From assembly GCF_001879715.1 (NCBI RefSeq), contig NZ_MNBW01000025.1, forward strand, positions 1 through 37,007: DNA of 37,007 nt. The letters are read 5' to 3'. The notes below the pieces were generated by a model. The model was not told the origin of the DNA and searched no databases. It saw nothing but the letters and a program-made list of their open reading frames with translations. This DNA comes from Nioella nitratireducens (lineage in GTDB: Bacteria; Pseudomonadota; Alphaproteobacteria; Rhodobacterales; Rhodobacteraceae). How positions within the stretch are numbered: the first letter of the stretch is position 1; every line of letters starts with the position of its first letter. The translations under genes were made by a program, and so were the position numbers. Positions 10,782 to 33,372 of the stretch are shown piece after piece.

Positions 10782-10812
10782 TACATAGAGGCTACAGCGA
10801 CTGTAGCTTCAA
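10782..10812 (-). promoter_or_regulatory. MerR-type promoter of the transglutaminase/CDF operon
   Basis: On the minus strand this reads -35 TTGAAG (10807-10812), a 19-bp spacer and -10 TATGTA (10782-10787). The spacer contains the perfect palindrome GCTACAG-TCG-CTGTAGC (10791-10807). A 19-bp spacer with a central dyad is the hallmark of promoters that MerR-family activators untwist when metal binds. The regulator encoded at 11146-11574 is the obvious candidate. Confidence 0.85.
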
Positions 10813-10822
10813 GCCCTGTCTG

Positions 10823-11149
10823 TCAAGAACTGCGGGGAGCGGCGAGAATGACCGTCGCCCCAGCCAGACAGATGACCGCTCCAATAAGATCCCATCTGTC
10901 TGGTCTTTCACCCTCCGCCCACCACATCCACCCAATCGATGCCACGATGTAAATTCCGCCATATGCGGCAAAGACTCTGCCGGCAGCAGGGGCCTCAACC
11001 TGCGAAAGCAACCAGCCGAACACGGCAAGCGAGAAAAGTCCGGGCACCAGCCAGAGTGGCGATGCGCCAAGACGCCACCACGTCCAAAATGCGAAGCAAC
11101 CAGCGATCTCGGCCAACGCTGCGAGCGGAAAGGCAATCGCGGCACTCAT
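10823..11149 (-). CDS. YnfA-family (UPF0060) small membrane protein
   Basis: This 108-residue protein has four membrane helices and matches the UPF0060/YnfA family in length and pattern: an opening [16 protein letters not shown], then [19 protein letters not shown] and a final [16 protein letters not shown]. YnfA proteins are related to small multidrug resistance transporters, and some are reported to export cationic compounds. ATG 11149 is chosen over longer forms because it overlaps the TGA of the MerR regulator as ATGA, showing translational coupling. Its role beside a metal sensor is not clear from the sequence. Confidence 0.88.
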
Positions 11150-11574
11150 GCGCCGATGTCGTCGTGCTCGGTCAGGCATTCCGAATGGTCCCGCAGGACC
11201 TCGAGTACCCTGCAATCCGCGGTCCGTCCGCCGCTGCACTCGTGGACCATGCGCTTCAGCTCGGTGCGAAGCGCTTTCAGGCGTGCCATGCGTTGCTCGA
11301 CCTGGCGGAGTTGCCGGCGGGCGATCGCATCTGCCTCGTCGCAGGACTTTTCCGGATGGTCGCTGAGATCGAGGAGCTCGCGGATCGCGTCGAGCGAGAA
11401 ACCGAGTTGCCGCGAATGACGGATGAACGATAGCCGATCAAGTTCGGCATCCCCGTAGCGGCGTTGCCCGCCCTCCGTCCGGCCCGGTTCAGGCATGAGC
11501 CCGATCTGTTCGTAGTACCGGATGGTCTGCACCTTGGTGCCGGTCTTCTTCGCCAGATTGCCGATTGTCAGCAT
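11146..11574 (-). CDS. MerR-family divalent-metal sensor (PbrR/CadR/ZntR type)
   Basis: This 142-residue activator has a winged helix-turn-helix (residues 1-70: [28 protein letters not shown], shortened here in description), a dimerisation helix and metal ligands Cys78, Cys113 and Cys121, with an extra Cys133. A Cys rather than Ser at position 77-79 marks sensors of +2 metals (Zn, Cd, Pb, Hg) and excludes the CueR copper type. The [11 protein letters not shown] loop resembles PbrR/CadR/ZntR. It is divergent from the Sco operon and coupled to YnfA. Matching operator cores occur near its own start and at four promoters in the island. Which metal it prefers cannot be read from the sequence. Confidence 0.88.
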
Positions 11575-11590
11575 ATGTTTCCCTCAAGAG

Positions 11591-11611
11591 AACCTACAGA
11601 CCTTGTAGGTT
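11591..11611. promoter_or_regulatory. Operator-like palindrome beside the merR-type gene
   Basis: AACCTACA, 5 bases, TGTAGGTT forms a perfect 8-bp inverted repeat 17 bases upstream of the regulator start. Its centre, CTACAG-ACC-TTGTAG, matches the core found in the other MerR-type promoters of the island. No good -35/-10 pair with 19-bp spacing frames it, so it may serve autorepression rather than activation. Confidence 0.6.
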
Positions 11612-11680
11612 TGGTGGGTTGATAGCGCAAGTCCGAGACTCACAGACGCGTGACCTCCCGCCGCAGCCGGACAATCAGGC

Positions 11681-11711
11681 TTGAATCTACAGTAGCTAGA
11701 GGATGTAAACG
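11681..11711 (+). promoter_or_regulatory. MerR-type promoter of the Sco/Dsb/lipoprotein operon
   Basis: TTGAAT (11681-11686), a 19-bp spacer and TAAACG (11706-11711), with the dyad CTACAG-TAG-CTAGAG in the spacer. The arrangement closely resembles the published pbr lead-resistance promoter as I remember it, including the CTAGAGG half. The -10 is poor by itself, as expected for an activator-dependent promoter. It lies 37 bases before the TTG start of the first Sco1 gene. Confidence 0.75.
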
Positions 11712-11747
11712 CCGAAATAATCAAGAATCAATCGCAGGCAGGCCGGA

Positions 11748-12350
11748 TTGTCCCTCGCATCGGTAAGAAAAGTTCTCTGGGTATTGGTGGGCATTGCAGC
11801 CCTCGCGCTCGGGTGGCTTCTGCTCGGGTCCGACTATCGCGCCGACAGCGCGCGATCAGAGGCAGATCCGGCTTTCGTCGCGGAGTTCGAACTGACCGAT
11901 CATCAGGGCATGATACGAACCGAAGACGATTTCGCGGGGCGCTGGATGCTGATCTTCTTCGGCTTCACAAACTGTCCCGACGTCTGCCCCACCACCCTGT
12001 CAGAGGTCGCGGCCGTGATGGAGGGACTGGGCGATGACGCTGCCAAGGTGCAGCCGATTTTCATCACGATCGATCCCGAACGCGACACGCCCACGGCGCT
12101 TGCGGATTACGTTCCCCTGTTCGATGCCGGCATCATCGGACTGACCGGCACACCGGAGCAGATTGCCCAGACGTCGGAAACTTTCCCGATCTTCTTCGAA
12201 CGCATCGAAGAAGCCTCTGCCCCCGACGGCTACACGATGGGGCATACGTCGCATCTGTTCCTCTTCGATCCAGACGCAGGCTTTGCCGAGTCCTGGCCCT
12301 ACGGCACGTCCGCCGAAGAGATCCTTGATAATCTGAGAGAGAGGATCTGA
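11748..12350 (+). CDS. Sco1/SenC-family copper chaperone/thiol-disulfide protein (first copy)
   Basis: This 200-residue protein has an N-terminal membrane anchor (residues 7-27) and a periplasmic thioredoxin-like domain. The copper/redox motif is C76-PDV-C80 in FTNCPDVCPTTL, and the third ligand is His166 in MGHTSHLF. DPERDTP is also typical. Sco proteins deliver copper to the CuA site of cytochrome oxidase or handle periplasmic thiols. The start is a TTG at 11748 with only a weak ribosome site, chosen because it precedes the membrane anchor and no ATG lies upstream in frame. It opens an operon under the MerR-type promoter. Confidence 0.9.
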   Translation: MSLASVRKVLWVLVGIAALALGWLLLGSDYRADSARSEADPAFVAEFELTDHQGMIRTEDDFAGRWMLIFFGFTNCPDVCPTTLSEVAAVMEGLGDDAAKVQPIFITIDPERDTPTALADYVPLFDAGIIGLTGTPEQIAQTSETFPIFFERIEEASAPDGYTMGHTSHLFLFDPDAGFAESWPYGTSAEEILDNLRERI

Positions 12351-12355
12351 CCGAC

Positions 12356-12778
12356 ATGACCCGAATATCCGGAGAAACGGCACTGGGACTGGCATGGGTG
12401 ATTGCTCTCACGGCGTCGCTAGCCGTGCTCTTCATCGGCGAGGTGCTGGGACAGACGCCCTGCCTGCTCTGCTGGTTCCAGCGAGCCTTCATGTTCCCAC
12501 TGGCCGTCATTCTCGGGCTCGGCCTTTGGTGGCGCGACCCGCTCGCGGGCCGTTACGGGATCGCGCTTGCGCTCGGTGGTGGCGCTGTCGCGCTCTGGCA
12601 CATGGGTCTTTACGTTGGCCTGATCCCCGAGCGCATCCAGCCCTGCACGGCCGCTGGTCCCTCCTGCACTGACGACAACCAGTTGATCTTCGGCATTCCG
12701 ATCCCGCTGATGGCGCTTGCCGCTTTCGCCCTGATCGGCGCGCTGTCGGCACTCTCTCTGAAGGAAACACGAACATGA
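12356..12778 (+). CDS. DsbB/BdbC-like disulfide bond formation membrane protein
   Basis: This 140-residue, four-helix inner-membrane protein would reoxidise a DsbA partner and pass electrons to quinone. It carries the two redox pairs expected: C36-LL-C39 in TPCLLCWFQRAFMF and C97/C104 in the second periplasmic loop (IQPCTAAGPSCTD). It starts 5 bases after the first Sco1 gene and overlaps the DsbA-like gene as ATGA, so the oxidase and its substrate oxidant are made together. BdbC-type length (about 140) fits better than E. coli DsbB (176). Confidence 0.9.
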   Translation: MTRISGETALGLAWVIALTASLAVLFIGEVLGQTPCLLCWFQRAFMFPLAVILGLGLWWRDPLAGRYGIALALGGGAVALWHMGLYVGLIPERIQPCTAAGPSCTDDNQLIFGIPIPLMALAAFALIGALSALSLKETRT

Positions 12779-13434
12779 ACAGACGCGGCCTGATCCTCTC
12801 CGTTCTCGCCCTCGGCGTCGCCGGTTTCGGCGGCGCGACGTGGTACGCAACACGCCCCGGTCCGGTGCCGGAGGCCGCGCCTGTCGCCCCGGAGATGGCG
12901 GAGGCTCTGATCCGGTCCTATTCGCCCGTTCTCGGTCCCGAGGATGCGCCCGTAACCATCGTCGAGTTCTTCGACCCGGCCTGTGAGGCTTGCCGCGCCT
13001 TCTATCCGGTGGTCGAAGCCATCATGGCCGAGCATGGCGATGCCGTGCGCGTGGTGATCCGCTATACGCCGTTCCACGGCGCGGCGTCCGAGGAAGCGAT
13101 TCGCGTGCTCGAGGCCGCGCGCATGCAGGGCGTCTTTGAGCCGGTTCTCGAAGCGGTACTACGGGAACAGCCGAGATGGGCGTCGCATGGAGCACCCGAG
13201 CCGGGACTCATCCTGGAGATCGCCGCAACGGCGGGCCTCGATGCGGAGGCCGCGCGCACGCAGATGCTTGCGCCGGACGTGGTGGCGATCCTGAACCAGG
13301 ACCGTGCCGACGTCGAGACTGTGGGCGTCCGCCAGACGCCCACGTTCTTCGTGAACGGCAAGCCGCTCGACCCGTTCGGCGAAGCCGAACTGCGAAGCCT
13401 GGTCGCGGCTGAAGTTACAGCGGCGCGAAGCTGA
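12775..13434 (+). CDS. DsbA-like periplasmic thiol oxidase
   Basis: This 219-residue thioredoxin-fold protein has an N-terminal signal/anchor (residues 4-23) and the active site C70-EA-C73 in FFDPACEACRAFYP. A helical insertion and the cis-proline loop (VRQTPTFFVNGKPL) follow. It would introduce disulfides into exported proteins and be recharged by the DsbB-like product, with which it overlaps by 4 bases. The FxxPxCxxC pattern is the BdbD/Com1-like subtype (DSBA, PF13462-like). Neighbouring Sco and PCu(A)C proteins suggest that it keeps metal-binding cysteines in the periplasm in a controlled redox state. Confidence 0.9.
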   Translation: MNRRGLILSVLALGVAGFGGATWYATRPGPVPEAAPVAPEMAEALIRSYSPVLGPEDAPVTIVEFFDPACEACRAFYPVVEAIMAEHGDAVRVVIRYTPFHGAASEEAIRVLEAARMQGVFEPVLEAVLREQPRWASHGAPEPGLILEIAATAGLDAEAARTQMLAPDVVAILNQDRADVETVGVRQTPTFFVNGKPLDPFGEAELRSLVAAEVTAARS

Positions 13435-13458
13435 ACCAAGAGAATGGGAAGAAGCAGG

Positions 13459-13926
13459 ATGAGGACCTTCTTTACTACCGGCGCTCTGACAGCGCTTTTG
13501 TCGTCCGCGGGGGCTTTGACGCCGGCGCTGGCAGGATCTGAGGACGTGGTCGTCGAAGGCGCTTGGTCCCGCGCGTCCATCGGCATGAACCGCCCCGGCG
13601 CCGCCTACATGACGATCCGCAATACCGGCGATACACCGGTGACGCTGATCGGCCTTACAACACCGCTCGCGATGATGCCCGAAATCCACGAGTCGAAGAC
13701 CAATGCCGATGGCGTGAGTTCCATGGCTCCGGCCGACGAGATCACCATCGCGCCGGGCGAAAGCGTGTCGCTCGAGCCGGGCGGTCTGCACGCGATGCTG
13801 ATGCAGTTGCAAACGCCGATGACGGAAGGAGAATCCTATCCGTTGACGCTGCTCTTTGACGACGGAGGCGAAGTGACGGTCGAGGTGCCGATCCTTGGCA
13901 TCGCTGCGCGAGGTCCGAACGACTGA
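13459..13926 (+). CDS. PCu(A)C-family periplasmic copper chaperone
   Basis: With the start at ATG 13459 this is a 155-residue protein with a clean signal peptide ending ...TPALAG. An in-frame ATG at 13444 would add five residues. The Cu(I) site H-x10/11-M-x21-H-x-M is fully present: His77, Met89, His111 and Met113 (EIHESK, SSMAP, GGLHAML). PCu(A)C proteins bind Cu(I) and pass it to CuA centres, often together with Sco. It lies between the DsbA-like gene and a second Sco1, whose ATG overlaps this stop (TGATG). The next gene pair therefore repeats the Cu-chaperone theme. Confidence 0.93.
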   Translation: MRTFFTTGALTALLSSAGALTPALAGSEDVVVEGAWSRASIGMNRPGAAYMTIRNTGDTPVTLIGLTTPLAMMPEIHESKTNADGVSSMAPADEITIAPGESVSLEPGGLHAMLMQLQTPMTEGESYPLTLLFDDGGEVTVEVPILGIAARGPND

Positions 13927-14552
13927 TGCGGCGACGGACGATCCTTGGATACGGCGCAGCGGGTGCCGGGGCGCTAGTCTTCGCGCTCTTTGTCGGCTGG
14001 TGGCAAGTCGACGGGCCTGGGGCGCCCGAACCGGTGGGCCAGCGGCCGATGGCTCTGTCCGCCATGGACTTCAGCCTGACGGATCACGAGGGAAACGAGG
14101 TCGGGCCGGAAACGCTGATCGGGCGCCCTGCGATGGTGTTCTTCGGCTTTACCTACTGTCCGGACGTCTGCCCGACCACGCTCTCGGACATTTCGGGATG
14201 GCTCGACGATTTGGGGGACGAGGCAAACGAGATGTCCGTGGCTTTCATCACTGTCGATCCCGAGCGCGACACCGTCGATGCGATGTCGGAGTATGTCGGC
14301 TATTTCCATCCGGCGATCCGCGGCTGGACCGGCGAAGATGAGGAAATCGCGAAAGCCGTCCTTGGCTTCCGCGCGAGCTACGAGCGGGTGCCGACCGAGA
14401 GTGGCGGCTACACGATGAACCACACCGCCAGCGTTTTCCTGTTCGACGCTGCGGGGCGGTTCGTCACCATGATCGACTATCACGAGCCAAGGGAATTCGC
14501 GGTGCCGAAGATTCGCCGCGCACTCGAAGAAGAAACCGAGGGGGCAACATGA
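13926..14552 (+). CDS. Sco1/SenC-family copper chaperone (second copy)
   Basis: This 208-residue protein has an N-terminal anchor (residues 8-26) and the Sco motif C78-PDV-C82 in FTYCPDVCPTTL, with His166 in MNHTASVFLF and DPERDT. It shares the fold and ligand spacing with the copy at 11748-12350 but only part of the sequence, so the two are likely diverged paralogues rather than a recent duplication. It overlaps the PCu(A)C stop and its own TGA overlaps the next start (ATGA). One Sco may act as a Cu carrier and the other as a thiol reductase. Confidence 0.92.
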   Translation: MRRRTILGYGAAGAGALVFALFVGWWQVDGPGAPEPVGQRPMALSAMDFSLTDHEGNEVGPETLIGRPAMVFFGFTYCPDVCPTTLSDISGWLDDLGDEANEMSVAFITVDPERDTVDAMSEYVGYFHPAIRGWTGEDEEIAKAVLGFRASYERVPTESGGYTMNHTASVFLFDAAGRFVTMIDYHEPREFAVPKIRRALEEETEGAT

Positions 14553-15922
14553 GAATCAGAGCAATCGCGTCAGGTTTCGCAATGGTGGCAGCTCTGTCGG
14601 CAGGCGGTCTCGTCGTATCGGGCATCTGGTCGAAGGAACCGCCGCCCCCAAGCCTCGCCGAGGCAAGCATCTGGACACCGGACCGGCTCCAAGCTCCCCG
14701 GATCGCCGAAGTAGAATTCCCGCGATCCGTGCAGCCGCGCGCCGAAGACATGCCTGCATTCAGTGCGATGCCACTTCTACAAGTCGATGCCGCCGAGATT
14801 ACATTGCCCACGATCGAACCTCCCCTTTCCACTTGGTCGCGCGAGATAGAAAGTGGTGAGACGCTCGATACAGTTCTCGCGGAGGCCGGTTTTTCGGCGA
14901 CCGACCGTGCGGAAGTCGCCCTCGCTCTTGGCGCGGAATACGATTTGAGGCAGCTCCGGCCAGGTCATTCCGTCACTGTCGTCTCGACGATGGACGGCAG
15001 CCCGCGCAGCGTCGCGCTCGCCGTCGAGGACAGCGTGCGCATCGAGGCGATCTTCGGCGATGAGCTTGCCACGCAGGTCGTCACCCCGGAGTCCGAGACG
15101 GTGACGCTTGCCGGGGAAGCGGTGATCGACAGCTCACTTTTCGCTGCGCTCGACGATGCCGATATCCCCGCCCGGTTCGCGGTGGACCTGGCGCAGATGC
15201 TCGGCGGGACGGTGGATTTCCGCCGTGAGATGGCCGGCGGCGAAACGCTCCGGGTTCTCTGGCGCGAGGCGCGCGTGGGCCAGGATAGGATCGGACAACC
15301 GGAACTGGCCTTTGCTGCGCTCGAGGTCGGCGGCGCGCTCTATGAGGTCGTTTGGCCGGACAATGGCAGCGGTCAGGCCACGGTTTATATCGACGGCGCG
15401 GTTCTCCGCGTTTTCGCGCAGCCCGTGGAAGGCGCGCGACTGAGCTCCGTTTTCGGCCGCCGCACCCATCCAGTCTATGGGAACGTGCGAATGCACACCG
15501 GCGTCGATTTCGCTGCGGCGCGTGGGACCCCGGTTCAGGCCACGGCACCCGGGCGCGTCAGCTTCATCGGTTGGCGGAACGGGTACGGCCGCGTGGTTGA
15601 AATCTCGCATGGCTCGGACACCACGACGCGCTATGCGCATCTCAGCGCCGTGCCGGACGGCCTTGTGCAAGGCCAGCGCGTGGCTGCCGGAGACCTGATC
15701 GGCCGTGTGGGCGCCACCGGCACCGCGACCGGTCCGAACCTGCACTACGAGGTCCTGGTGGACGGTCGGCCGACCGATCCTCTCTCCGACGAGCGGCTCG
15801 CCGAAGCTGCCGAGCGCGAAGCGAATGACTCTGCCGCGCGGTCGATGCTCGCCGAAGCCCGCGCGCTTCTCGCTGAAAGTCTCGACCGCGAGATCGCCCT
15901 GACAGCAACCGAAAGGCTCTGA
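14549..15922 (+). CDS. M23-family murein endopeptidase (LytM type), exported
   Basis: This 457-residue protein has an N-terminal signal/anchor (about 6-25), a LysM/OapA-like segment around 105-150 (SGETLDTVLAEAGF, then RPGHSVTVV) and a C-terminal M23 domain (about 295-405). Zinc ligands are His316 and Asp320 (MHTGVDFAA) and the His in GPNLHYEV. His364 (RYAHLS) is the catalytic histidine. The usual HLH is NLH, so the second catalytic histidine is replaced by Asn. Members cleave peptidoglycan cross-bridges during growth or assembly. Its place inside a copper/thiol operon is unusual. The start overlaps the second Sco1 stop. Confidence 0.88.
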   Translation: MRIRAIASGFAMVAALSAGGLVVSGIWSKEPPPPSLAEASIWTPDRLQAPRIAEVEFPRSVQPRAEDMPAFSAMPLLQVDAAEITLPTIEPPLSTWSREIESGETLDTVLAEAGFSATDRAEVALALGAEYDLRQLRPGHSVTVVSTMDGSPRSVALAVEDSVRIEAIFGDELATQVVTPESETVTLAGEAVIDSSLFAALDDADIPARFAVDLAQMLGGTVDFRREMAGGETLRVLWREARVGQDRIGQPELAFAALEVGGALYEVVWPDNGSGQATVYIDGAVLRVFAQPVEGARLSSVFGRRTHPVYGNVRMHTGVDFAAARGTPVQATAPGRVSFIGWRNGYGRVVEISHGSDTTTRYAHLSAVPDGLVQGQRVAAGDLIGRVGATGTATGPNLHYEVLVDGRPTDPLSDERLAEAAEREANDSAARSMLAEARALLAESLDREIALTATERL

Positions 15923-15925
15923 CCC

Positions 15926-16381
15926 ATGAAACGTCTGACACAAGCCCTGACCTTCGCCATCGCACTGTTTCCGGCAGCGCAGGCCCTCGCGGAGGCAACT
16001 GCCATCGATGTCCGAAAGACCAATGGATGCGGCTGCTGCCTATCCTGGATGAACCATCTCCAGGACAACGGCTTCACACCGACCGGCCAGGACATGTTCG
16101 GCGGCCTTCTCGTGCGCTTCAAGCTCGACAACGGGGTGCCGCAGCGCATGGTCTCTTGCCACACGGCGCTCGTTGACGGCTACGTGATCGAGGGCCACGT
16201 GCCGGCCGCTGACATCCGCCGCCTTCTAGACGAACAGCCCGACGCGGTCGGTCTCGCGGTTCCGGGCATGCCCTACGGTTCGCCCGGCATGGGGCCCGAG
16301 GAGGACCGCGAAGCCTACGACGTCTTTCTGATTCTCAAGGACGGCTCGACCGAAGTCTATTCGAGCTACCCGGAAGGGTAA
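15926..16381 (+). CDS. DUF411-family exported metal-binding protein
   Basis: This 151-residue protein has a signal peptide (residues 1-22, ending ALAEA) and the DUF411 signature: a Cys cluster C35-G-C37-C38 in TNGCGCCLSWMNHL, then RMVSCHTALVDGYVIEGHVPAADI. DUF411 proteins are frequent in copper and mixed-metal resistance clusters and are thought to bind metal in the periplasm. The biochemical role is not settled. It starts 3 bases after the M23 peptidase gene and precedes the ZIP transporter in the same operon. Confidence 0.9.
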   Translation: MKRLTQALTFAIALFPAAQALAEATAIDVRKTNGCGCCLSWMNHLQDNGFTPTGQDMFGGLLVRFKLDNGVPQRMVSCHTALVDGYVIEGHVPAADIRRLLDEQPDAVGLAVPGMPYGSPGMGPEEDREAYDVFLILKDGSTEVYSSYPEG

Positions 16382-16393
16382 GCCACCTGACGA

Positions 16394-17176
16394 ATGGATC
16401 AGTTGTCCCCGATCATGCTCGGCTTTCTCGGAAGTCTGGCCGCCGGCACATTGACAGCCGTCGGAGCAGTCCCCGTGCTGTTCGGGCGGATCCCCTCACG
16501 CGGCACACGCGACCTGTCGCTCGGCTTTGCGGCTGGCGTGATGCTCGCAGCTTCGTTCTTCTCGCTGATCATTCCCGCGCTGGACGCGGCCGAACCGCGG
16601 TTCGACAACGGGGCAGCGCCCGCGGCCATCGTCTGCATCGCAATCCTTCTGGGCATGGCTACCGTTGCCCTGATGAATGAGAAGCTGCCGCACGAACACT
16701 TCAAAACAGGCCGCGAAGGTCCGGACGCCGCGTCGCTCCGGCGGGTCTGGCTCTTCATCATCGCAATCACGATCCACAACTTTCCCGAGGGTCTCGCGGT
16801 CGGGGTCGGGTTCGGTTCCAGTGGCATGGAAGGTGGCCTCCCACTCGCCATCGGTATCGGCTTGCAGAACGCACCCGAGGGTCTGGCGGTGGCGGTGTCG
16901 CTCATGGGTGAAGGATACGCGAAGCTGCGCGCCTGGGGCATTGCGGCCCTCACCGGCATGATCGAACCGATCGGCGGGTTGCTCGGGGCGGGTATCATCA
17001 CGCTGTCGGAGCCGCTGCTGCCCTGGGGGCTGGCGTTCGCCGCCGGCGCGATGCTCTATGTCATCAGCCACGAAATCATCCCCGAGACCCATCGCAGCGG
17101 ACATCAGAACAAGGCGACGCTCGGACTGTCGGTTGGCCTTGTCCTGATGCTGTTTCTCGATGTCTGGCTGGGGTGA
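16394..17176 (+). CDS. ZIP-family divalent metal transporter
   Basis: This 260-residue, roughly eight-helix membrane protein of the ZIP family moves Zn2+, Mn2+ or Fe2+ into the cytosol. The paired metal-binding helices are clear: HNFPEGLAVGVGFG in helix 4 and QNAPEGLAVAVSL in helix 5. A third element, SHEIIPETHR, lies near the C-terminus. The histidine-rich cytosolic loop typical of eukaryotic ZIPs is only a short LPHEHF. An importer inside a resistance island next to exporters is notable, and some ZIPs work in the export direction. The last 17 bases overlap the lspA start. Confidence 0.88.
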   Translation: MDQLSPIMLGFLGSLAAGTLTAVGAVPVLFGRIPSRGTRDLSLGFAAGVMLAASFFSLIIPALDAAEPRFDNGAAPAAIVCIAILLGMATVALMNEKLPHEHFKTGREGPDAASLRRVWLFIIAITIHNFPEGLAVGVGFGSSGMEGGLPLAIGIGLQNAPEGLAVAVSLMGEGYAKLRAWGIAALTGMIEPIGGLLGAGIITLSEPLLPWGLAFAAGAMLYVISHEIIPETHRSGHQNKATLGLSVGLVLMLFLDVWLG

Positions 17177-17663
17177 GGCAGTGTTGTCAGTCGAAAGACC
17201 GCCGGTGATCGGTATGTTGGCCGCCGTCGCGGCTTTCGCGATCGATCAGGTCACAAAGGCAATCGTCGTCATGAATGCGAGCGTCCTGAGCGTTGGTGTT
17301 CCCGTGTTTCCCGGATTCAACCTCACGTTCCATCGGAACGATGGCGTGACCTTCGGACTTTTGGGCGGCGCGCCGTGGTGGAGCCTCGTGGTGCTCGCTC
17401 TTGCCGTCTGCGCCTGGCTCGTGATCATGATGATGCGAACCCGGGACGGGATCGAGGCGCTTGCCTACGGGGCGATCATCGGCGGCGCCTTCGGCAACGT
17501 GATGGACCGTCTCAGATTCCGGACCGTGACTGATTTCCTCGATTTCTACGCCGGCGCCGCGCACTGGCCAGCCTTCAACATGGCTGACGTCTTCGTGGTC
17601 GGCGGCGTCGGATTGCTTCTTGTCGCGCCGATGATCAAGCGACGGCCTAGGTCCGGTCCGTGA
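17160..17663 (+). CDS. lspA: Lipoprotein signal peptidase (signal peptidase II)
   Basis: This 167-residue inner-membrane aspartyl protease cleaves the signal peptide of diacylglyceryl-modified prolipoproteins. Four membrane helices are visible. The catalytic aspartates are D116 in GNVMDR and D143 in FNMADVF, matching E. coli positions 114 and 141, and the FxRNxGVTFG-like stretch (FHRNDGVTFGLL) is present. The start at ATG 17160 overlaps the ZIP gene; GTG 17181 is an alternative. lspA genes are known passengers of lead/cadmium/zinc (pbr-type) operons, where one is named pbrC. Here it sits next to an N-acyltransferase gene, which is less usual. Confidence 0.93.
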   Translation: MSGWGEAVLSVERPPVIGMLAAVAAFAIDQVTKAIVVMNASVLSVGVPVFPGFNLTFHRNDGVTFGLLGGAPWWSLVVLALAVCAWLVIMMMRTRDGIEALAYGAIIGGAFGNVMDRLRFRTVTDFLDFYAGAAHWPAFNMADVFVVGGVGLLLVAPMIKRRPRSGP

Positions 17664-19222: not shown

Positions 19223-19389
19223 TGCTGGTGATCATGGGAATTGTCGGGGGAGCGATCTGGGGTGGCTTCTTGGCCAGACGAAGGAAGGGAAACCGACTGG
19301 ACATTCTTCAGTATGCTGCAGCCTCGGCGATTGCCTTCGGCCTGGTCGGGCTACTCGCTACGATCCTGGTCTCGCGTCTTCTAGGCTAA
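19222..19389 (+). CDS. Small two-helix membrane protein after lnt
   Basis: This 55-residue protein starts at ATG 19222, overlapping the lnt stop (TGATG). It has two hydrophobic segments (LVIMGIVGGAIWGGFLA and AAASAIAFGLVGLLATILV) joined by a basic loop (RRRKGNRLD). I do not recognise the family. The coupling to lnt suggests that it is the last gene of the Sco-to-lnt operon. A longer frame starting at 19159 would overlap lnt by 60 bases and is less likely. Confidence 0.65.
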   Translation: MLVIMGIVGGAIWGGFLARRRKGNRLDILQYAAASAIAFGLVGLLATILVSRLLG

Positions 19390-19924: not shown

Positions 19925-19952
19925 TTCGCAAGTCTGCCCTGAGACACAAGGA

Positions 19953-19996
19953 TTGACAACTTGTTTGCTTCGGGTAGATAAATTAGCCACGGCTAA
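19953..19996 (+). promoter_or_regulatory. Promoter with MntR-type operator for the peroxidase/ABC operon
   Basis: TTGACA (19953-19958), a 17-bp spacer and AGATAA (19976-19981) form a strong promoter. Directly downstream lies the palindrome TTAGCC-AC-GGCTAA (19983-19996), over the expected transcription start. TTAGCC/GGCTAA half-sites are in keeping with DtxR/MntR-family operators, and the mntR gene is the adjacent divergent gene. Binding there would repress the operon when the metal is plentiful. Confidence 0.7.
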
Positions 19997-20016
19997 CTTT
20001 TGTATTGGAGGTCATC

Positions 20017-21897: not shown

Positions 21898-22772
21898 TGT
21901 GGATCCGTCTGAGCCGCAGAAAGACGCTGATCCTGTCCGTCGCGGGCGCCGTGTCCCTGGGAACACGGCTTGCAGCACAGGAAGAAGGCTTGCGCCTCGC
22001 CTTCATTCCCCAGGAAAACCCCGAAAAACTGCTCGGCGACATCGCGGCCATCACCGGGTGGCTGGCGGATCAGATCGGCGTACCGGTCGAGGGTTTCGTC
22101 ACCATCGACCATGCCGCGGCCGTCGAGGCGCTGCGGAACGGTGACGCCGACATCTCGTTCATGGGCGCGCTCCCCTTCGTGCTGGCCGAGGCCGAGATTG
22201 GCGCAGTGCCTCTGCTGTCCGAAGTCTATCGCGGCGCGCCCAATTACACCGCGCGGATCTTCGTGCGCCGCGACAGCGGGATCGAAACACTTGCTGATCT
22301 CGGGGGCAAGGATATCGCTTTTGCGGACCCGATCTCGGAATCGGGCTATCTCTATCCTCTGGCCGAGTTCGTCGAGGCCGGATTGGTTGCCGGGCCCGGC
22401 GACGCGGACGCCTTTTTCGGTCGCATCTTCTTCGCGGGCGGATATCAGCAGGCGATGCAGGCGATGGCCGAGGGCCTTGTCGATGCCGCCGGCGCGAGCC
22501 AGTACGCCGACCTCCTTCTCACCCCGCAGCAGCAGGCCGAGGTCATCTGGATCGCCGAGAGCGAACCAATCCCCAGCCACGTGGTGATCGCGCAACCGGG
22601 ACTGGACGCAGACCTCCGGTCGCGGTTCGTCGATGCGATGATGCGCCTCAACGAAGCCGGCAACCGCGACCTGCTGCGCTACCTCTACGGACCCGATGGC
22701 TATGTCCAAGCAGACCCCGCTGCCTATGACGGGGTGCGCGACATGGCCCGCCGCTACGGGCTCCTCGAGTGA
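21897..22772 (+). CDS. PhnD-like periplasmic substrate-binding protein
   Basis: This 291-residue protein has an exported N-terminus (residues 1-27, RLSRRKTLILSVAGAV) followed by a PhnD/phosphonate-type binding fold: LRLAFIPQENPEKLLGDI at the start, IDHAAAVEALRNGDADISFMG, then ADPISESGYLYP and the late AQPGLDADLRS. PhnD proteins bind phosphonates, phosphite or other small oxyanions, and several family members bind unrelated ligands. No phosphonate lyase (phnG-M) or phosphite oxidase is present. The start overlaps the peroxidase stop (TGATG). With an MntR box upstream, a metal or metal-chelate ligand is a possibility but not shown. Confidence 0.85.
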   Translation: MWIRLSRRKTLILSVAGAVSLGTRLAAQEEGLRLAFIPQENPEKLLGDIAAITGWLADQIGVPVEGFVTIDHAAAVEALRNGDADISFMGALPFVLAEAEIGAVPLLSEVYRGAPNYTARIFVRRDSGIETLADLGGKDIAFADPISESGYLYPLAEFVEAGLVAGPGDADAFFGRIFFAGGYQQAMQAMAEGLVDAAGASQYADLLLTPQQQAEVIWIAESEPIPSHVVIAQPGLDADLRSRFVDAMMRLNEAGNRDLLRYLYGPDGYVQADPAAYDGVRDMARRYGLLE

Positions 22773-23551
22773 GCGCCGCGGCGCAAATAGGCGATCTGAG
22801 CTTCGTCCATCAGGGCGCCGGACTACCGGCATTGGACCATGTGTCGCTCATGGTGCCTGCAGGCGAAAGCACCGCGCTGCTCGGACCCTCGGGCGCAGGG
22901 AAAACGACGCTACTGGCCTTGCTCGACGGGCGGCTTCGTGGCTGGCGCGGTCGGGTCTCGGTCCTCGGTGCGCCGCTCGATCCCGATCATCCACCGCCGC
23001 GCGCTGGCCGGCCTGAAGTCGGCTTTATCTTTCAGGAATTCGCGCTGGTCGAACGCTCTTCGGTACTGCGAAACGTTCTGAACGGACGCCTTGGCCGCAT
23101 GTCGCCCGTGCGCGCGGCCCTCGGGTCTCCCTTGCCACGCGACCTGGAGGTGGCGCGCGCCGCACTCGCTGATTGCGGCATCGCCGATCTGGCCGAGCGT
23201 AGGGTCGACAGCCTCAGCGGTGGGCAGCGGCAGCGTGTGGCCATCGCCCGATGCCTCGCCCAGGAGCCGCGCCTGATCCTTGCCGACGAGCCCGTTAGCA
23301 ATCTCGATCCCGCCCGCGCCGCAGAAATCCTGACGCTGCTGACCGGTGCTGCGCGCGCGCGTGGCGCGACCGTGCTGTTCTCCTCGCACCAGCCCGACCT
23401 CGCGCGGCGTTTCGCCGATCGCATCGTGGGCATGCGCGATGGCCGGATCGCCTTCGACGTGGCTGTCGGAGACTTGAGCGATGTCGCGACCGCGGACCTC
23501 TATCGCGAAACGACGGCCCTGCCGGCCATCGGTTTGCGGGCGGTGACCTGA
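22769..23551 (+). CDS. PhnC-like ABC transporter ATPase
   Basis: This 260-residue ATP-binding subunit has Walker A GPSGAGKT (39-46), the signature LSGGQRQRVAIARCL, Walker B LILADEP followed by VSNLDP, and the switch histidine in FSSHQPDL. It would drive import by the PhnE-like permease. The start is GTG 22769, overlapping the PhnD-like stop, and the stop overlaps the permease ATG. Sequence and gene order are of the phosphonate (PhnC) type, but the true substrate depends on the binding protein. Confidence 0.9.
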   Translation: MSAAAQIGDLSFVHQGAGLPALDHVSLMVPAGESTALLGPSGAGKTTLLALLDGRLRGWRGRVSVLGAPLDPDHPPPRAGRPEVGFIFQEFALVERSSVLRNVLNGRLGRMSPVRAALGSPLPRDLEVARAALADCGIADLAERRVDSLSGGQRQRVAIARCLAQEPRLILADEPVSNLDPARAAEILTLLTGAARARGATVLFSSHQPDLARRFADRIVGMRDGRIAFDVAVGDLSDVATADLYRETTALPAIGLRAVT

Positions 23552-24309
23552 TGCGGTCGCGCGGGTTTGGCGGTTTCGCGGCCGGGGCTTTGGTCGCGGG
23601 TGCAGTTCTCTGGTCGTTCGCCACGACCGATGTCGACCTGTCGCGCCTCCTGTCCGCCGGGCCCCGGATCGCGGATTTCCTCGGCCGGATGGTCCCGCCC
23701 GATCCGACCGTTATGAACGAGATTTTGAAGGGCAGCGCGGAAACGCTGCGCATCGCGATCCTGGGGTCTCTGGGCGCGGTCCTCCTGTCGGTGCCACTGG
23801 GGATACTTGCATCCGAGACGATGGTTTCGCCAGTGCTCTACCGACCCGTCCGGACGCTCCTCGCTTTTATCCGGGCCATCCCGCTGATTCTGGTGGCGAT
23901 GCTCATGGTGGGCGCGGTGGGCCTGGGTCCCCTCCCCGGCATCATCGCGGTCGCCTTCCATGCCACCGGCATGCTCGCGAAGTTCTACGCCGAAGCGATC
24001 GACGGCGTCTCCCGCGCGCCGATCGCCGCGCTGGAAAGCGCCGGTGCCGGGCCGCTGGCGCGGCTCCGCTACGCGATCTGGCCGCAGATGGCGCCGGTCG
24101 TCGCCCGCGACACCATCTTCCGGTTCGAACTGAACCTGCGCGAGTCGCTGATCCTGGGCATCGTCGGCGCGGGCGGTATCGGGTTCTACATCCAGACCTA
24201 TGTGCGCTCGTTCCAGTACGACAAGGCAGCAAGCATGACACTGGCCGTGATCGCGATGGTGATCGCCATCGAAGCCATCAACGTGGCTCTTCGCCGCCGG
24301 TTTGCCTGA
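23551..24309 (+). CDS. PhnE-like ABC transporter permease
   Basis: This 252-residue inner-membrane permease has about six helices and the cytosolic EAA-type loop that docks the ATPase (AALESAGAGPLARLRYAIWPQMAP). The pattern RAIPLILVAMLMVGAVGLGPLPG near the middle is typical of PhnE. It completes the transporter with the two preceding genes and is last in the operon, facing the L,D-transpeptidase gene convergently across 35 bases. No terminator hairpin with a T-run was seen there. Confidence 0.88.
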   Translation: MRSRGFGGFAAGALVAGAVLWSFATTDVDLSRLLSAGPRIADFLGRMVPPDPTVMNEILKGSAETLRIAILGSLGAVLLSVPLGILASETMVSPVLYRPVRTLLAFIRAIPLILVAMLMVGAVGLGPLPGIIAVAFHATGMLAKFYAEAIDGVSRAPIAALESAGAGPLARLRYAIWPQMAPVVARDTIFRFELNLRESLILGIVGAGGIGFYIQTYVRSFQYDKAASMTLAVIAMVIAIEAINVALRRRFA

Positions 24310-24344
24310 AGCGATCGACCGACGCGCAGACGCCTCTCGGCCCA

Positions 24345-24857
24345 TCAGGCGTAGATGTCTATCGGTGTCCCGTCCCGAACCATGGCGTAGATTTCCTCGA
24401 TCTCCGGATCCGAGACCGAGATGCAGCCCGCCGTCCAGTCGCGGACATTCGTGGGGTCGATCCCCCGCCGCGGTCCACCGTGAATGAAGATGTCCTTGCC
24501 GGGGGAACGCCCTTGGGACTCAGCGAAAGCGATGTCGGCCTCGTTCGGGTAGGAGATGCCGACGGACAGATGGAAGAGGCTGTCGGGGTTCCGCCGGTCG
24601 ATCACGTAGGAGCCTTCCGGTGTGCGGCCGTCGCCCTCAAACTGTTTGTGACCGACAGGCACGAAGCCCAGCCCGATCGGATATGTCCGTAAGACGCGAT
24701 CGGCGCCGTCGAGAACCAGCAGGCGCTGCGCCTTGTAGAGGCGCAGCCGGGTGACCTCGGGTCCGTTGTAGGTTCGGAACTTGCTGGCGCAACCGGATAG
24801 AAAAGCGACAAGCCCACCGAACAAGACGACGCGGCGCGGAATATGGATCTTCATCAC
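24345..24857 (-). CDS. L,D-transpeptidase (YkuD) lipoprotein
   Basis: This 170-residue protein has a lipoprotein signal with lipobox L20-S-G-C23 and a YkuD domain (about 40-168). Active-site residues are the His in FIHGGP and the Cys in DWTAGCISV, where the usual S/T-H-G-C is T-A-G-C. These enzymes make 3-3 cross-links in peptidoglycan or attach proteins to it. It begins 63 bases after the end of the P-type ATPase gene on the same strand with no obvious promoter between, so it is probably read from the same MerR-controlled promoter. Its lipoprotein nature makes it a possible client of the lspA/lnt copies in the island. Confidence 0.85.
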   Translation of the reverse strand: MMKIHIPRRVVLFGGLVAFLSGCASKFRTYNGPEVTRLRLYKAQRLLVLDGADRVLRTYPIGLGFVPVGHKQFEGDGRTPEGSYVIDRRNPDSLFHLSVGISYPNEADIAFAESQGRSPGKDIFIHGGPRRGIDPTNVRDWTAGCISVSDPEIEEIYAMVRDGTPIDIYA

Positions 24858-24920
24858 TGCTCTATGCCTCGTGAGCGAGGTCTCGTATGGGGCAAACGCT
24901 ACCCTGCGGCTCGTCGCGGT

Positions 24921-27266
24921 TCAATGCCCGTGTGCAAGCGCGCCGCTTGCCATCTGCGCACCAATATGTTCACCGCCGGACGGCGGCGCATCTGCCTTGT
25001 GGCCGTTGAGCAGGCGCAACGCATTGGCGACAACGAGAAGCGAGACGCCGACATCCGCCGCGATCGCGCCCCACATCGACGCCATCCCGAATGCCGTCGC
25101 GACGACGAATACGGCTTTTGTCGCCAGAGAAACGCCGATGTTCTGGCGGATGATCGACATGGCGCGGCGTGAATGTCCGATGAGCCAAGGCACCCGGCCG
25201 ATGTCGTCCGTCATAAGGGCGATGTCCGCTGTCTCGATGGCCGCGTCGGACCCGACGGCGCCCATGGCGATGGCGTAGTGCGCGCGCGCCATGGCCGGGG
25301 CATCATTCACCCCGTCGCCAATCATCGCGACCATGTCGTGGCTTTCGACCAGTTCCTCGATGGCCGTCACCTTGTCCTCGGGCAAGAGTTCGGCGCGCAC
25401 CTCGTCGATGCCGACCTCCGCCGCAACGGCGCGCGCGGTACGTTCATTGTCGCCGGTCAGCATGACGATGGTCTTCACGCCCTGCGCATGTAGTCGCGCG
25501 ACGACACCCTTGGCGTCCGGGCGGATCCGGTCGCGCAGTTCCAGAATCCCGGTCACGCCGGTCTCGTCACCGACGGCCACAAGCGTGCTGCCGGCCCCCT
25601 CGATCCGGTCACGGAGGTCCACCGGAATGGCGCTGCCGAACCCTTTCTCCTCGGCGAACCGGTCGGAGCCAAGCCAGACCTCTCGGCCCCCTGCCCTTCC
25701 TTCCAGCCCCCGTCCCGGCACGGTGCGTGTATCCTCGGCCGCTGAGACCGCGATGCCGTCTGCCTCGGCCCGCGCAAGTATGGCACGCGCCAGCGGATGC
25801 GATGACCGCGCTTCGAGTGCGCCCGCCAGCGTCATAAGATCGCGCGCCGAGGCCACGCCAAGCGGATGCACGGCGGCCACCTCAGGCTCACCCATGGTGA
25901 TTGTACCGGTCTTGTCCATCGCCAGTGCCGTCGTCCGGCCCGGGGCTTCGACATAGGCTCCGCCCTTGATGAGAACCCCCGCCCGCGCCGAGGCCGTAAG
26001 CGCAGCCACGATGGAGACCGGGGTTGAGATGACCAGAGCACAGGGACAGGCGATCACGAGAAGAACCAGCGCGTTGTAGACCCAGTAGTCCCAGGCTCCA
26101 CCGAGGACGAGCGGCGGCACCAGCGCAATGGCGATCGCCAGCGCCATGACGATGGGCGTATAGATGCGCGCGAACTTCGCGACCCACTGCTCAACGGGCG
26201 CCCGGCGGGCGTGAGCGTCCCCCACCATGCGGATGATCTTGGCGAGCACCGTGTCTGAGGCCGCCCTGGTCGCGCGCACCGTCAGCGTCCCTTCGCCGTT
26301 GATCGTTCCCGCGTAGACTTCGTCGCCTGGCTCCTTTGGCACCAGCGCGCTTTCGCCGGTGATTGGCGCCTGATCGACGGCCCCTGCCCCATCTACAACT
26401 TCACCATCCAGCGGGATGCGGTCGCCGCCGCGCACCACGAACCGTGCATTGATGGCAACAGCGGAAGCCGGCACGTCTGCTTCAGAACCATCATCATAGA
26501 GAACCCTTGCCGTCGGCGGCGCCAGGTCAAGCAACGCTGAAACCGCGTTCCGCGCGCGCCCGACGCTCCAGCTTTCGAGGTAGAGCGACAGCGAGAAGAA
26601 GAAGGCCACCGTCGCCGCCTCGAAGAACTCGCCGAGGCCGATGGCCCCCGCCACCGCGACCACCATGAGAAGGTTCATGTCGGGCGACAGACGCCGCGCG
26701 GAGGACCAAGCCTTCGGGGCCACGAGCCAGACACCGAACAGGATCGCGACGGCGAAGAGCATCGCCTCCGCCAGCGGCATCGGCGCTTCGCCGTGACCCG
26801 CAAACAGCCCGAGGGCACCGCCCATGCCGGTCTCGACGATGTGCCAGAGAAAGCCGGCCGCCCAGAAGCCGCCGCTCAGCGCCGTGAACAGCCGCTGCCG
26901 GGCGAGATGGGCCGCCTGATCTTCCGATGCGGTTCCTGCATCCCAGGGCTTCGCACTCATGCCGGTGGTCGCAACCAGTTGCGCCACCTCGTCGTCAGTT
27001 AAACGGTCCGCGCTGTCCAGAATGGTCATCCGCCCGTTGATGACGTCGAAAGCCAGATGCTCTGCTCCGCCGACCTTCGTTCCGACGACTTTATTCAGGA
27101 TCGCCACTTCTTCGGCGCAGTCGAGACCGGAAACCTGAAAGCTTCGCCCGACCGATGGCGCAGGCGTCGCTGGAGCGATGTCGGCGCAGTTTCCAGTGCC
27201 TCCGCAGCAGCTATCGTTGCGACCTTCATCGTGATCGTGATCGTGGGCATGGGCGGAAGAAGACAT
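24921..27266 (-). CDS. Heavy-metal P-type ATPase (CadA/ZntA type) exporting Zn/Cd/Pb
   Basis: This 781-residue P1B-ATPase pumps divalent metal out of the cytosol. The N-terminus is His/Cys-rich (HAHDHDHDEGR, SCCGG), followed by a heavy-metal-associated domain with G-LDCAEE rather than the canonical GMTCxxC. The membrane CPC motif is at 407-409, the phosphorylated Asp451 lies in DKTGTIT, and GDGVNDAPAMA is present. Regulation by a Cys78-type MerR promoter and the His-rich head favour Zn/Cd/Pb over copper. The promoter at 27299-27329 lies just upstream of ATG 27266. An L,D-transpeptidase gene follows on the same strand. Confidence 0.93.
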   Translation of the reverse strand: MSSSAHAHDHDHDEGRNDSCCGGTGNCADIAPATPAPSVGRSFQVSGLDCAEEVAILNKVVGTKVGGAEHLAFDVINGRMTILDSADRLTDDEVAQLVATTGMSAKPWDAGTASEDQAAHLARQRLFTALSGGFWAAGFLWHIVETGMGGALGLFAGHGEAPMPLAEAMLFAVAILFGVWLVAPKAWSSARRLSPDMNLLMVVAVAGAIGLGEFFEAATVAFFFSLSLYLESWSVGRARNAVSALLDLAPPTARVLYDDGSEADVPASAVAINARFVVRGGDRIPLDGEVVDGAGAVDQAPITGESALVPKEPGDEVYAGTINGEGTLTVRATRAASDTVLAKIIRMVGDAHARRAPVEQWVAKFARIYTPIVMALAIAIALVPPLVLGGAWDYWVYNALVLLVIACPCALVISTPVSIVAALTASARAGVLIKGGAYVEAPGRTTALAMDKTGTITMGEPEVAAVHPLGVASARDLMTLAGALEARSSHPLARAILARAEADGIAVSAAEDTRTVPGRGLEGRAGGREVWLGSDRFAEEKGFGSAIPVDLRDRIEGAGSTLVAVGDETGVTGILELRDRIRPDAKGVVARLHAQGVKTIVMLTGDNERTARAVAAEVGIDEVRAELLPEDKVTAIEELVESHDMVAMIGDGVNDAPAMARAHYAIAMGAVGSDAAIETADIALMTDDIGRVPWLIGHSRRAMSIIRQNIGVSLATKAVFVVATAFGMASMWGAIAADVGVSLLVVANALRLLNGHKADAPPSGGEHIGAQMASGALAHGH

Positions 27267-27298
27267 TGGCGCACCTTGTGATTCGGGCCGACGGTATT

Positions 27299-27329
27299 GA
27301 CATAGTCCCTACAGCGACTAGAGCTTCAA
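27299..27329 (-). promoter_or_regulatory. MerR-type promoter of the P-type ATPase
   Basis: On the minus strand: -35 TTGAAG (27324-27329), a 19-bp spacer and -10 TATGTC (27299-27304), with the dyad CTCTAG-TCG-CTGTAG (27309-27323) in the spacer. The -35 and the TCG-CTGTAG half are identical to the transglutaminase/CDF promoter at 10782-10812, so the same regulator is expected to act on both. Confidence 0.85.
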
Positions 27330-27446
27330 GAAGTTAGATGTCCTTGACATGGGGTGGCCGGATAAGCGATCCGGGCTGGAACGGAATCCTTCGTAGTCCC
27401 TTCGAGACAGCAGGCTGTCCGATCGCGAATGGCAAATGAGGCAGAT

Positions 27447-27713
27447 ATGCGCAAGACAACAGTTTTTACTTTGTTTACAACAATTTCCCTTGCCGGATGC
27501 GCGATGCCAGTTGCCGATCGCGACAGGTACGAGGTCGGAAATGTGCCCGATCAGGTGGTGGCGATGGCAGCGCCAGGCCAGGACCTGTCTTCGGCCCGTT
27601 TGGTGCCCGAGGATGGATGCTATTGGTATACGCACAGTGGTCCGGTCGAGACGACTTTGGTTCCGCTTCGCGCCGTCGGCGGCAGACCTATCTGCACTGC
27701 GCGGGAGTCTTGA
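27447..27713 (+). CDS. Small lipoprotein of unknown function
   Basis: This 88-residue protein has a lipoprotein signal peptide with lipobox L15-A-G-C18. The mature part is short and polar, with GCYWYTHSGPVETTLVPLR in the middle and Cys residues at the GCYW and PICTA positions that could form a disulfide. ATG 27447 is chosen for the GAGG six bases before it; the in-frame ATG 27429 adds a poor signal start. It is divergent from the P-type ATPase. No family function is known to me. A palindrome GACAGC-AG-GCTGTC lies upstream at 27406-27419. Confidence 0.7.
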   Translation: MRKTTVFTLFTTISLAGCAMPVADRDRYEVGNVPDQVVAMAAPGQDLSSARLVPEDGCYWYTHSGPVETTLVPLRAVGGRPICTARES

Positions 27714-27761
27714 AAACCGCATAGGGCGTGAGACGCTCGTGTCTGTCGAAGGTCTCCCAAG

Positions 27762-28424
27762 TCACCCTTGCGCGACTACGCTCTCCTCAGCCGAATACAG
27801 GTACGCCGTCGCTCCGATCCTCACCCTCGGGTAAAGGTCGTTGATATGAGCCATGACCATCCTGACGCACCCTGAACTTGCCCGGCCCCCGATGCTCCTC
27901 GGGTATGGTGTTCCATGGATACGCAGGTAAGTGTCCCGCTCACCGACAAAGAGATAGAGCGCTCGCGATCCGAGCGCGTTGGTCGGACCAGGCTCCATGC
28001 CATTGGCGAACTCGGCATACTCCGGGTTCCGCTCAATCATGTTCTGCGTCGGCGTCCAGTGCGGCCACTCGACCTTGCGCCGAATCGTATAAGTCCCTGG
28101 CTCATAGAGGTCGCCCTGCGCGATTGCCACGCCGTAGCGCATCGCTGTACCGCCTTCCTCGATGTGGTACAGGTACCGCGCAACCGCATCGACATGGATG
28201 TCTCCCGGAATCAATCCCGCGTTTGCGGCAACGCGTTGCGGAAGAAAGCGCGGACGCAGATCCCACGGGTTCGTTGTCGCCGGGTCGTAGCCTGCCGGAG
28301 TGACTTCTGCGTCCCAAGTGGCTTTTTGCGCCTCTGTCGGCCATGTGTCGGCAAAAGCCAAGCTTGGAAGCGACATAGACATGAGCCCCGAGGTTGCTTG
28401 AATGAAGTGTCGTCTTGTCAGCAT
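27762..28424 (-). CDS. Exported L,D-transpeptidase (YkuD) with Tat-like signal
   Basis: Starting at ATG 28424 this is a 220-residue protein. The signal peptide opens LTRRHFIQATSG, a twin-arginine-like motif, and ends near SLAFAD. The YkuD domain spans about 80-215. The active-site block is HGTPYPRSIGGRASSGCVRM, with the usual His, Ser, Gly and Cys. An upstream TTG at 28481 is in frame but lies on the -10 of the promoter, so it is rejected. The protein would form 3-3 cross-links in the periplasm. It has its own MerR-type promoter, which ties peptidoglycan modification to the metal response, and faces the small lipoprotein gene convergently. Confidence 0.88.
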   Translation of the reverse strand: MLTRRHFIQATSGLMSMSLPSLAFADTWPTEAQKATWDAEVTPAGYDPATTNPWDLRPRFLPQRVAANAGLIPGDIHVDAVARYLYHIEEGGTAMRYGVAIAQGDLYEPGTYTIRRKVEWPHWTPTQNMIERNPEYAEFANGMEPGPTNALGSRALYLFVGERDTYLRIHGTPYPRSIGGRASSGCVRMVMAHINDLYPRVRIGATAYLYSAEESVVAQG

Positions 28425-28472
28425 CGATGGACTGTATCTCTCTGCACCAGATCTTATCTTTTCGCAGCATTG

Positions 28473-28503
28473 TGTATGCAACCTCTAGCGGCTGGAGGGT
28501 CAA
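28473..28503 (-). promoter_or_regulatory. MerR-type promoter of the second L,D-transpeptidase
   Basis: On the minus strand: -35 TTGACC (28498-28503), a 19-bp spacer and -10 CATACA (28473-28478). The spacer carries CTCCAG-CCG-CTAGAG (28483-28497), the same dyad layout as the other MerR-type sites, though with a diverged left half. Transcription would start about 40 bases before ATG 28424. Confidence 0.65.
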
Positions 28504-33083: not shown

Positions 33084-33086
33084 GGC

Positions 33087-33359: not shown

Positions 33360-33372
33360 GGGCCTTTCCCCC

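Follow-up and report, generated by a model that had tools for sequence, protein, structure and literature searches.

Operator-promoter sites and genes of the island

The window analyzed here is the entire contig C18 of Nioella nitratireducens (37,007 nucleotides of a 4.01-Mb genome), in which genes for metal efflux and for cell-envelope proteins lie on both sides of a gene for a divalent-metal-sensor-type MerR regulator of 142 amino acids (merR; 11146–11574, minus strand), assigned from Pfam, NCBIfam, PDB relatives, and cysteine conservation. The first-pass annotation of this DNA had assigned to the island four promoters with a TTGAxx −35 box, a 19-bp spacer, and a dyad, and all four were found. 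Sites 1 to 4 shared one architecture, with a TTGA −35 sequence followed by a 19-bp spacer that holds a CTNNAG-N3-CTNNAG dyad; a dyad inside a −35/−10 spacer of 19 or 20 bp characterizes promoters activated by MerR-type regulators, and it was seen at all four sites, with a weak −10 at Site 4. In the direction of transcription, Site 1 (10782–10812, minus strand) read TTGAAG-CTACAGTCGCTGTAGCCTC-TATGTA with CTACAGTCGCTGTAG in the spacer, Site 2 (11681–11711, plus strand) read TTGAAT-CTACAGTAGCTAGAGGATG-TAAACG with CTACAGTAGCTAGAG, Site 3 (27299–27329, minus strand) read TTGAAG-CTCTAGTCGCTGTAGGGAC-TATGTC with CTCTAGTCGCTGTAG, and the promoter-like Site 4 (28473–28503, minus strand) read TTGACC-CTCCAGCCGCTAGAGGTTG-CATACA with CTCCAGCCGCTAGAG. 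Searching the window for the pattern TTGANNCTNNAGNNNCTNNAG with up to one mismatch gave five matches, counting the palindromic partner of Site 1, against 0.06 expected, and none of 100 window shuffles reached five. A scan of the host genome for the motif, which the first-pass annotation had proposed as a check, gave five exact matches, four of them in the window, and none for the reversed control. When the TA of the −10 was added to the pattern and one mismatch was allowed, five places were found genome-wide (sites 1–4 and one beside a second merR gene on contig C3), with one for the control; Site 4 was included among these only by use of the one mismatch.

Site 1 is predicted to drive a unit of two overlapping genes on the minus strand, encoding a transglutaminase-like protein (TGase; 9982–10752; PF01841) with Cys73 conserved in 39/39 orthologs, and a CDF cation efflux transporter (9033–9992; PF01545, PF16916). 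Site 2 is predicted to drive ten plus-strand genes that overlap or are separated by at most 12 bases. These encode SCO-family protein a (11748–12350; PF02630; both CxxxC cysteines in 50/50), a DsbB-like protein (12356–12778; PF02600; four cysteines in 41/41), a DsbA-like thioredoxin-fold protein (12775–13434; PF13462, PF01323; CxxC in 49/49), the copper chaperone PCu(A)C (13444–13926; PF04314), SCO-family protein b (13926–14552; PF02630; both cysteines in 47/47), an M23 metallopeptidase (14549–15922; PF01551), a DUF411 protein with four conserved cysteines (15926–16381; PF04214; 43/43), a ZIP-family metal transporter (16394–17176; PF02535), LspA (17160–17663; TIGR00077 over cut-off), and Lnt with conserved Cys390 (17660–19222; TIGR00546 over cut-off; 49/49); the genome has a second LspA and a second Lnt over cut-off. 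Site 3 is predicted to drive the minus-strand cadA gene and, 63 bases beyond it, the gene for L,D-transpeptidase a (LdtA; 24345–24857; YkuD, PF03734), in which a lipobox-like Cys23 and Cys145 were both kept in 30/30 orthologs. CadA (24921–27266; TIGR01512 and TIGR01525 over cut-off) is a CadA/ZntA-like Zn/Cd/Pb-type P-type ATPase, as indicated by its CPC motif (19/19) and a TIGR01512 score of 502.1 bits against a cut-off of 313.5. Site 4 lies before a single minus-strand gene for L,D-transpeptidase b (LdtB; 27762–28424; YkuD, PF03734), with the cysteine of its SSGCVRM motif in 15/15 orthologs. The motif cysteines of the transglutaminase, SCO, Dsb, Lnt, and L,D-transpeptidase families have catalytic roles. 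PCu(A)C and the M23 protein contained no cysteine, and the other cysteines of Lnt, TGase, and CadA varied among orthologs. Besides the island copies, the host genome holds one Lnt, one LspA, one SCO protein, and eight YkuD proteins; these envelope genes of the island are thus extra copies.

The regulator, its own promoter, and a paralog

The merR product matched PF13411, PF00376, and PF09278 over cut-off, which places it in the MerR superfamily. Its cysteines are Cys78, Cys113, Cys121, and Cys133, and all four were kept in 32/32 distinct orthologs; the first three had been named by the first-pass annotation at exactly these positions, and Cys133 is a further one. Cys78 occupies the C79 position of ZntR and PbrR and, with the C-terminal Cys113 and Cys121, makes up the set of the divalent-metal MerR group. 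It aligned with the corresponding cysteine of the closest solved relatives, the MerR-family regulator 5gpe and CadR, and according to the available text of PMC3431237, every divalent-metal MerR protein tested required C79. In the same text the lead response of PbrR is described as requiring the C-terminal C134, a feature reportedly not found in other characterised MerR regulators, and the invariance of Cys133 in the 32 orthologs is noted beside it. The regulator matched 18 NCBIfam models, all with scores under the respective cut-offs, including the CadR-PbrR equivalog TIGR02047 (114.2 bits against 151.45), the ZntR equivalogs (121.3 and 108.2 bits against 143 and 167.95), and the CueR equivalog TIGR02044 (119.9 bits against 147.4), and the metal is therefore not readable from the family. 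The cysteine set and the likeness to CadR and 5gpe support a divalent-metal sensor.

A fifth copy of the dyad beside the regulator gene had also been proposed. The dyad itself was real, a near-palindrome AACCTACAGACCTTGTAGGTT at 11591–11611 (Site 5), and it differed from sites 1–4 in having neither a TTGA box at the right distance nor a 19-bp spacer. On the merR strand it covered the −10 of a predicted merR promoter (11602–11630, minus strand; TTGCGC, 17-bp spacer, TACAAG). Of 39 distinct regions upstream of merR, 38 preserved the TTG-N20-TACA geometry, and the dyad was mostly CTACA-N4-CTGTA. Because the dyad covers the −10 of a 17-bp-spaced promoter, a fifth activating promoter was rejected, and Site 5 predicts repression of merR by its own product rather than activation.

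The regulator was the sole MerR of the window, as had been stated, and not the sole one of the genome, in which eight MerR-domain matches were found. A second merR gene on contig C3 encodes a protein of 80% identity with the same four cysteine positions and the same recognition-helix and wing residues. Its locus (C3:14566–16044) contains an operator site of its own followed by a CDF gene that is 72% identical to its island counterpart, and is a minimal version of the predicted regulon elsewhere in the genome. Two of the six other MerR genes adjoin P-type ATPases that appear by eye to be of the copper type. The C3 regulator probably recognises the same operator, and control of the island promoters may be shared. 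An arrangement in which the paralog controls or co-controls these promoters, so that the island regulator would be neither the only nor the principal switch, is a possibility to which we give appreciable weight without favoring it; on plasmids and contigs of relatives, the sites are accompanied by the island MerR, which argues for the island regulator and is still compatible with cross-talk.

Copper, rather than zinc, cadmium, or lead, could be the main signal. The largest operon holds SCO proteins, PCu(A)C, and DUF411, which we take to be linked to copper, and copper genes were found nearby in several relatives. Against this, Cys78 stands at the divalent-metal position in the alignment with CadR and 5gpe, and a search of the window for operators of the HmrR/CueR, Hg-MerR, and Escherichia coli ZntR types at up to three or four mismatches gave none except a four-mismatch HmrR-type match overlapping Site 4. 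Phenotypes reported for Roseobacter point the same way: R. litoralis, which carries the island on plasmid pRLO149_83, grew unimpaired up to 0.08 mM zinc and R. denitrificans, without those plasmid genes, showed no growth at 0.02 mM, whereas copper tolerance was reversed, being lower in R. litoralis (PMC3141670). The relation between zinc phenotype and island is a correlation only, the two strains differing in much else, and the available text on Dinoroseobacter shibae reports that another plasmid, of 102 kb and carrying metal genes, had no effect on zinc, copper, or cobalt tolerance (PMC9426580). We consider copper an unlikely main signal.

Conservation of the sites among relatives

The sites were compared in 103 sequences, consisting of the best 80 of 516 scan matches with a MerR of at least 90% identity, 20 further stretches, and three annotated plasmids. 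For each gene, exact sites were counted over distinct upstream sequences within −250 to +20 of the coding strand; orthologs below 60% identity or 60% of the length were left out beforehand, as were genes preceded by fewer than 250 bases and, in the one-mismatch count, N-bearing rows. The site was present before cadA in 18/18 regions exactly and in 18/18 with up to one mismatch, before SCO a in 45/51 and 51/51, before TGase in 34/36 and 35/35, and before LdtB in 4/13 and 9/13, and the four transcription units with their site recurred across many genera of Rhodobacterales. In 19 control genes of the same islands, there were 1/538 exact matches, 2/538 with one mismatch, and 50/538 with two. The sole exact control match was a site directly before the CDF gene of one locus (L154), and 44 of the 50 two-mismatch matches lay upstream of MerR, where the SCO site is on the other strand in 44/54. 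A TA at offset 25, 19 bp past the −35, was found in 82/82 distinct sites with up to one mismatch and was not demanded by the pattern; at other offsets between 21 and 33 it never exceeded 12/82. Among the 18 distinct cadA regions with an exact site, pairwise identity was 0.27–0.30 in the flanks (−70 to −7), 0.77 in the free motif columns, and 1.0 in the TA, the fixed columns being identical by the selection of exact sites; the flanks of cadA have thus diverged to near-random while the site stays. Flank identity was 0.46–0.47 for SCO a (34 distinct) and 0.38–0.40 for TGase (28 distinct). In a tally that counts redundant loci, 224 exact sites were found in 105 sequences, of which 203 lay before the four target families, six before other island-type genes, and 15 before anything else or without a clear frame. 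Two exact sites (L039, 2829; L040, 2830) preceded a gene for a long protein that by eye resembles a CcmF-like protein of cytochrome c biogenesis, which would be another envelope function. In ten loci an exact site preceded a second, different L,D-transpeptidase-like protein (31–39% identity to LdtB), and on pRLO149_83 one preceded each of two annotated L,D-transpeptidases; these loci suggest that this class of enzyme was recruited into the regulon on more than one occasion.

The sites also tracked the regulator across 149 genomes of the family, which were grouped by their best MerR identity, control matches being counted alongside. There were 52 sites in the 14 genomes at 80% or above (mean 3.7; control 6), 44 in the 20 genomes at 60–79% (control 8), 28 in the 28 genomes below 60% (control 17), and 23 in the 87 genomes without a MerR match at E 1e-30, which was fewer than the 37 of the control. 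In the first group, 48 of the 52 sites lay within 25 kb of a MerR homolog. Four exact sites in the order and orientation of the window were found on one contig in at least four of eight genomes searched (Pseudooceanicola, Vannielia, Maritimibacter, and Palleronia), and two further genomes (G154, G156) had three exact sites together and, where the fourth would be, a match with one mismatch. A genome of Oricola (G153, locus L031) had 11 exact matches, four on one contig (C8) and three on another (C20), some of them perhaps by chance; these may perhaps represent a larger regulon. Five sites were found on pRLO149_83. Of 72,556 plasmid records, 221 had a MerR match at E ≤ 1e-55, 94 of these at 90–95% identity, including many near-identical plasmids of Phaeobacter and Pseudosulfitobacter.

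Family MerRs at 43–66% identity often had one site of the same pattern beside their gene, and the operator would therefore be that of a wider CadR-like class, which the island has extended. The same observation would fit a history in which the operons were collected separately, each having once had a MerR of its own, and in which the common operator is a relic and not a sign of coordination. The SCO, TGase, and CadA promoters, however, keep the site while their flanks decay, and a common operator would still yield common control; we regard this history as improbable. An origin of the sites by chance or composition, for which nothing speaks at sites 1–3 and which would have a case only for Site 4, weak by itself, can be dismissed in view of the window shuffles, the counts in targets and controls, the fixed TA offset, the tracking of MerR, the flank decay, and the extended pattern in the genome.

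The predicted regulon and its relation to known systems

The recurrence of the site before the same units across genera, the divergence of the flanks, and the tracking of MerR support the joint control of four operons by one regulator that the first-pass annotation had proposed. The island very probably constitutes one CadR/ZntR-like regulon, with four promoters and approximately 15 genes for efflux and envelope machinery, much of it thiol-dependent. MerR would be expressed from its own 17-bp-spaced promoter, limited by self-repression at Site 5, and would occupy the dyads in four promoters in which the −35 and −10, 19 bp apart, are too widely spaced for RNA polymerase. Cys78, Cys113, and Cys121 would bind a divalent metal, in all likelihood zinc, cadmium, or lead, and the metal-bound regulator would distort the DNA and switch on four presumably co-transcribed units: TGase-CDF; SCO-DsbB-DsbA-PCu(A)C-SCO-M23-DUF411-ZIP-LspA-Lnt; CadA-LdtA; and LdtB. 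CadA and CDF would then move metal from the cytoplasm outward, and the remaining cargo might protect or re-supply the envelope processes harmed by periplasmic metal.

Several observations weigh against this reading. Without the −10 TA, the pattern gave 12 matches at up to one mismatch in the genome against 21 for the reversed control, and at one mismatch it was at or below the control in this genome and in those of eight relatives, so single weaker matches mean little. Site 4 has CATACA in place of the TA common to relatives' sites, as does its counterpart in Palleronia, and it is poorly kept before LdtB, 4 of 13 regions having no site even within one mismatch. The evidence is very strong for sites 1–3 and moderate for Site 4, which, with its weak −10, is the weakest link of the proposed regulon. 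The regulator scores under the NCBIfam cut-offs of CadR-PbrR, ZntR, CueR, and MerR alike, and the genome holds a second MerR with an identical recognition helix. Most loci were picked by MerR similarity, and they reflect shared ancestry rather than independent trials. In one relative (L038, 3919), the pattern also preceded a gene that is mercury-transport-like by eye. The pattern may also catch Hg-MerR operators in such bacteria.

As to the purpose of the envelope genes, we tentatively propose a programme of thiol rescue, a reading that we would not yet call probable, in which a cytoplasmic zinc, cadmium, or lead sensor would induce spare or metal-tolerant thiol-dependent envelope enzymes together with the pumps, responding to metal that these pumps will push into the periplasm. 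The enzymes would be the L,D-transpeptidases, Lnt with LspA, DsbA/DsbB, SCO, and transglutaminase. The proposal is based on the invariance of the motif cysteines, the other enzyme copies held by the host, and the second kind of L,D-transpeptidase behind its own site in other islands. LspA, PCu(A)C, and M23 are non-thiol enzymes, and metal resistance of the island enzymes is a conjecture. The proposal also draws on a commentary that, in its available text, describes how copper, rather than zinc, cadmium, or lead, inhibits L,D-transpeptidases, modifies the +1 cysteine of lipoproteins, and disturbs disulphide formation (PMC6593411), the three processes being envelope functions carried on the island.

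Other genes lie among these units. A YnfA-family membrane protein (10823–11143, minus strand; PF02694) is encoded directly after merR. Divergent from cadA is a gene for a small predicted lipoprotein (27429–27713; lipobox LAGC), with homologs in the same place in some relatives and no Pfam match. On an Actibacterium plasmid (L158), a zf-TFIIB (zinc ribbon) gene (18706–18972) separates cadA from the L,D-transpeptidase gene, possibly in parallel with the zinc-ribbon protein under CadR of Pseudomonas aeruginosa (PMC12301328). The region 19466–24309 contains an MntR-like regulator, a MauG/cytochrome-peroxidase-like gene, and a phosphonate-type ABC transporter inside the island with no MerR site, a module also found on a Roseovarius plasmid (L160). 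Its CCP-PhnDCE part (20005–24309), which adjoins the MntR-like gene, was rejected as a regulon member, there being no site at up to two mismatches in 7 (CCP), 4 (PhnD), 4 (PhnC), and 6 (PhnE) distinct upstream regions. As judged by eye from the proteins, the metal genes are flanked by a large serine recombinase (6761–8503) and by trb conjugation-type genes (28944–36653).

If the regulon is as proposed, a CadR/ZntR-like one-component metal sensor would command envelope upkeep besides efflux, and would do so in a mobile form that is common among plasmids of marine Roseobacter. Metal resistance would then be linked to lipoprotein maturation and to the L,D-transpeptidation of peptidoglycan, and a role would be predicted for extra lspA and lnt copies near metal genes. 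In the open-access literature searched, there was no title or abstract describing this regulon. Among its closest counterparts is the same island on pRLO149_83, with MerR, TGase-CDF, SCO-to-Lnt, ATPase, and L,D-transpeptidase genes and its five sites, for which the 2011 paper gives transporters and a zinc phenotype, its main text being without the word MerR (PMC3141670). CadR of Pseudomonas is alike in its CTNNAG-N3-CTNNAG operator between −35 and −10, its divalent-metal cysteines, and its P-type ATPase target, and the window sites resemble by eye the measured CadR sites of P. aeruginosa; there, however, two sites have been validated, at cadA and zrd (PMC12301328), compared with four promoters and approximately 15 mostly envelope genes here, and the window regulator scores under the CadR-PbrR cut-off. 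The pbr operon of Cupriavidus metallidurans is alike in combining a MerR regulator, an efflux ATPase, and PbrC, a predicted prolipoprotein signal peptidase fused to the undecaprenyl-pyrophosphate phosphatase PbrB, and differs in having one divergent promoter region and, as described in the available portions of these articles, no SCO, Dsb, Lnt, or L,D-transpeptidase genes (PMC3431237, PMC1526738). The CueR and Hg-MerR regulons are likewise activated from long spacers, with several genes or operons per regulator, and differ in their operators, in their metals, and in consisting mostly of proteins that handle copper or mercury. Up to nine genes may belong to an Hg-MerR regulon (PMC1526738), and CueR serves several operons according to the available text of PMC7763554; the breadth that the first-pass annotation had called unusual is thus unusual for the CadR/ZntR class and not for all MerR proteins. 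The class of the regulator is known, and what would be new is the unusual breadth of its control.

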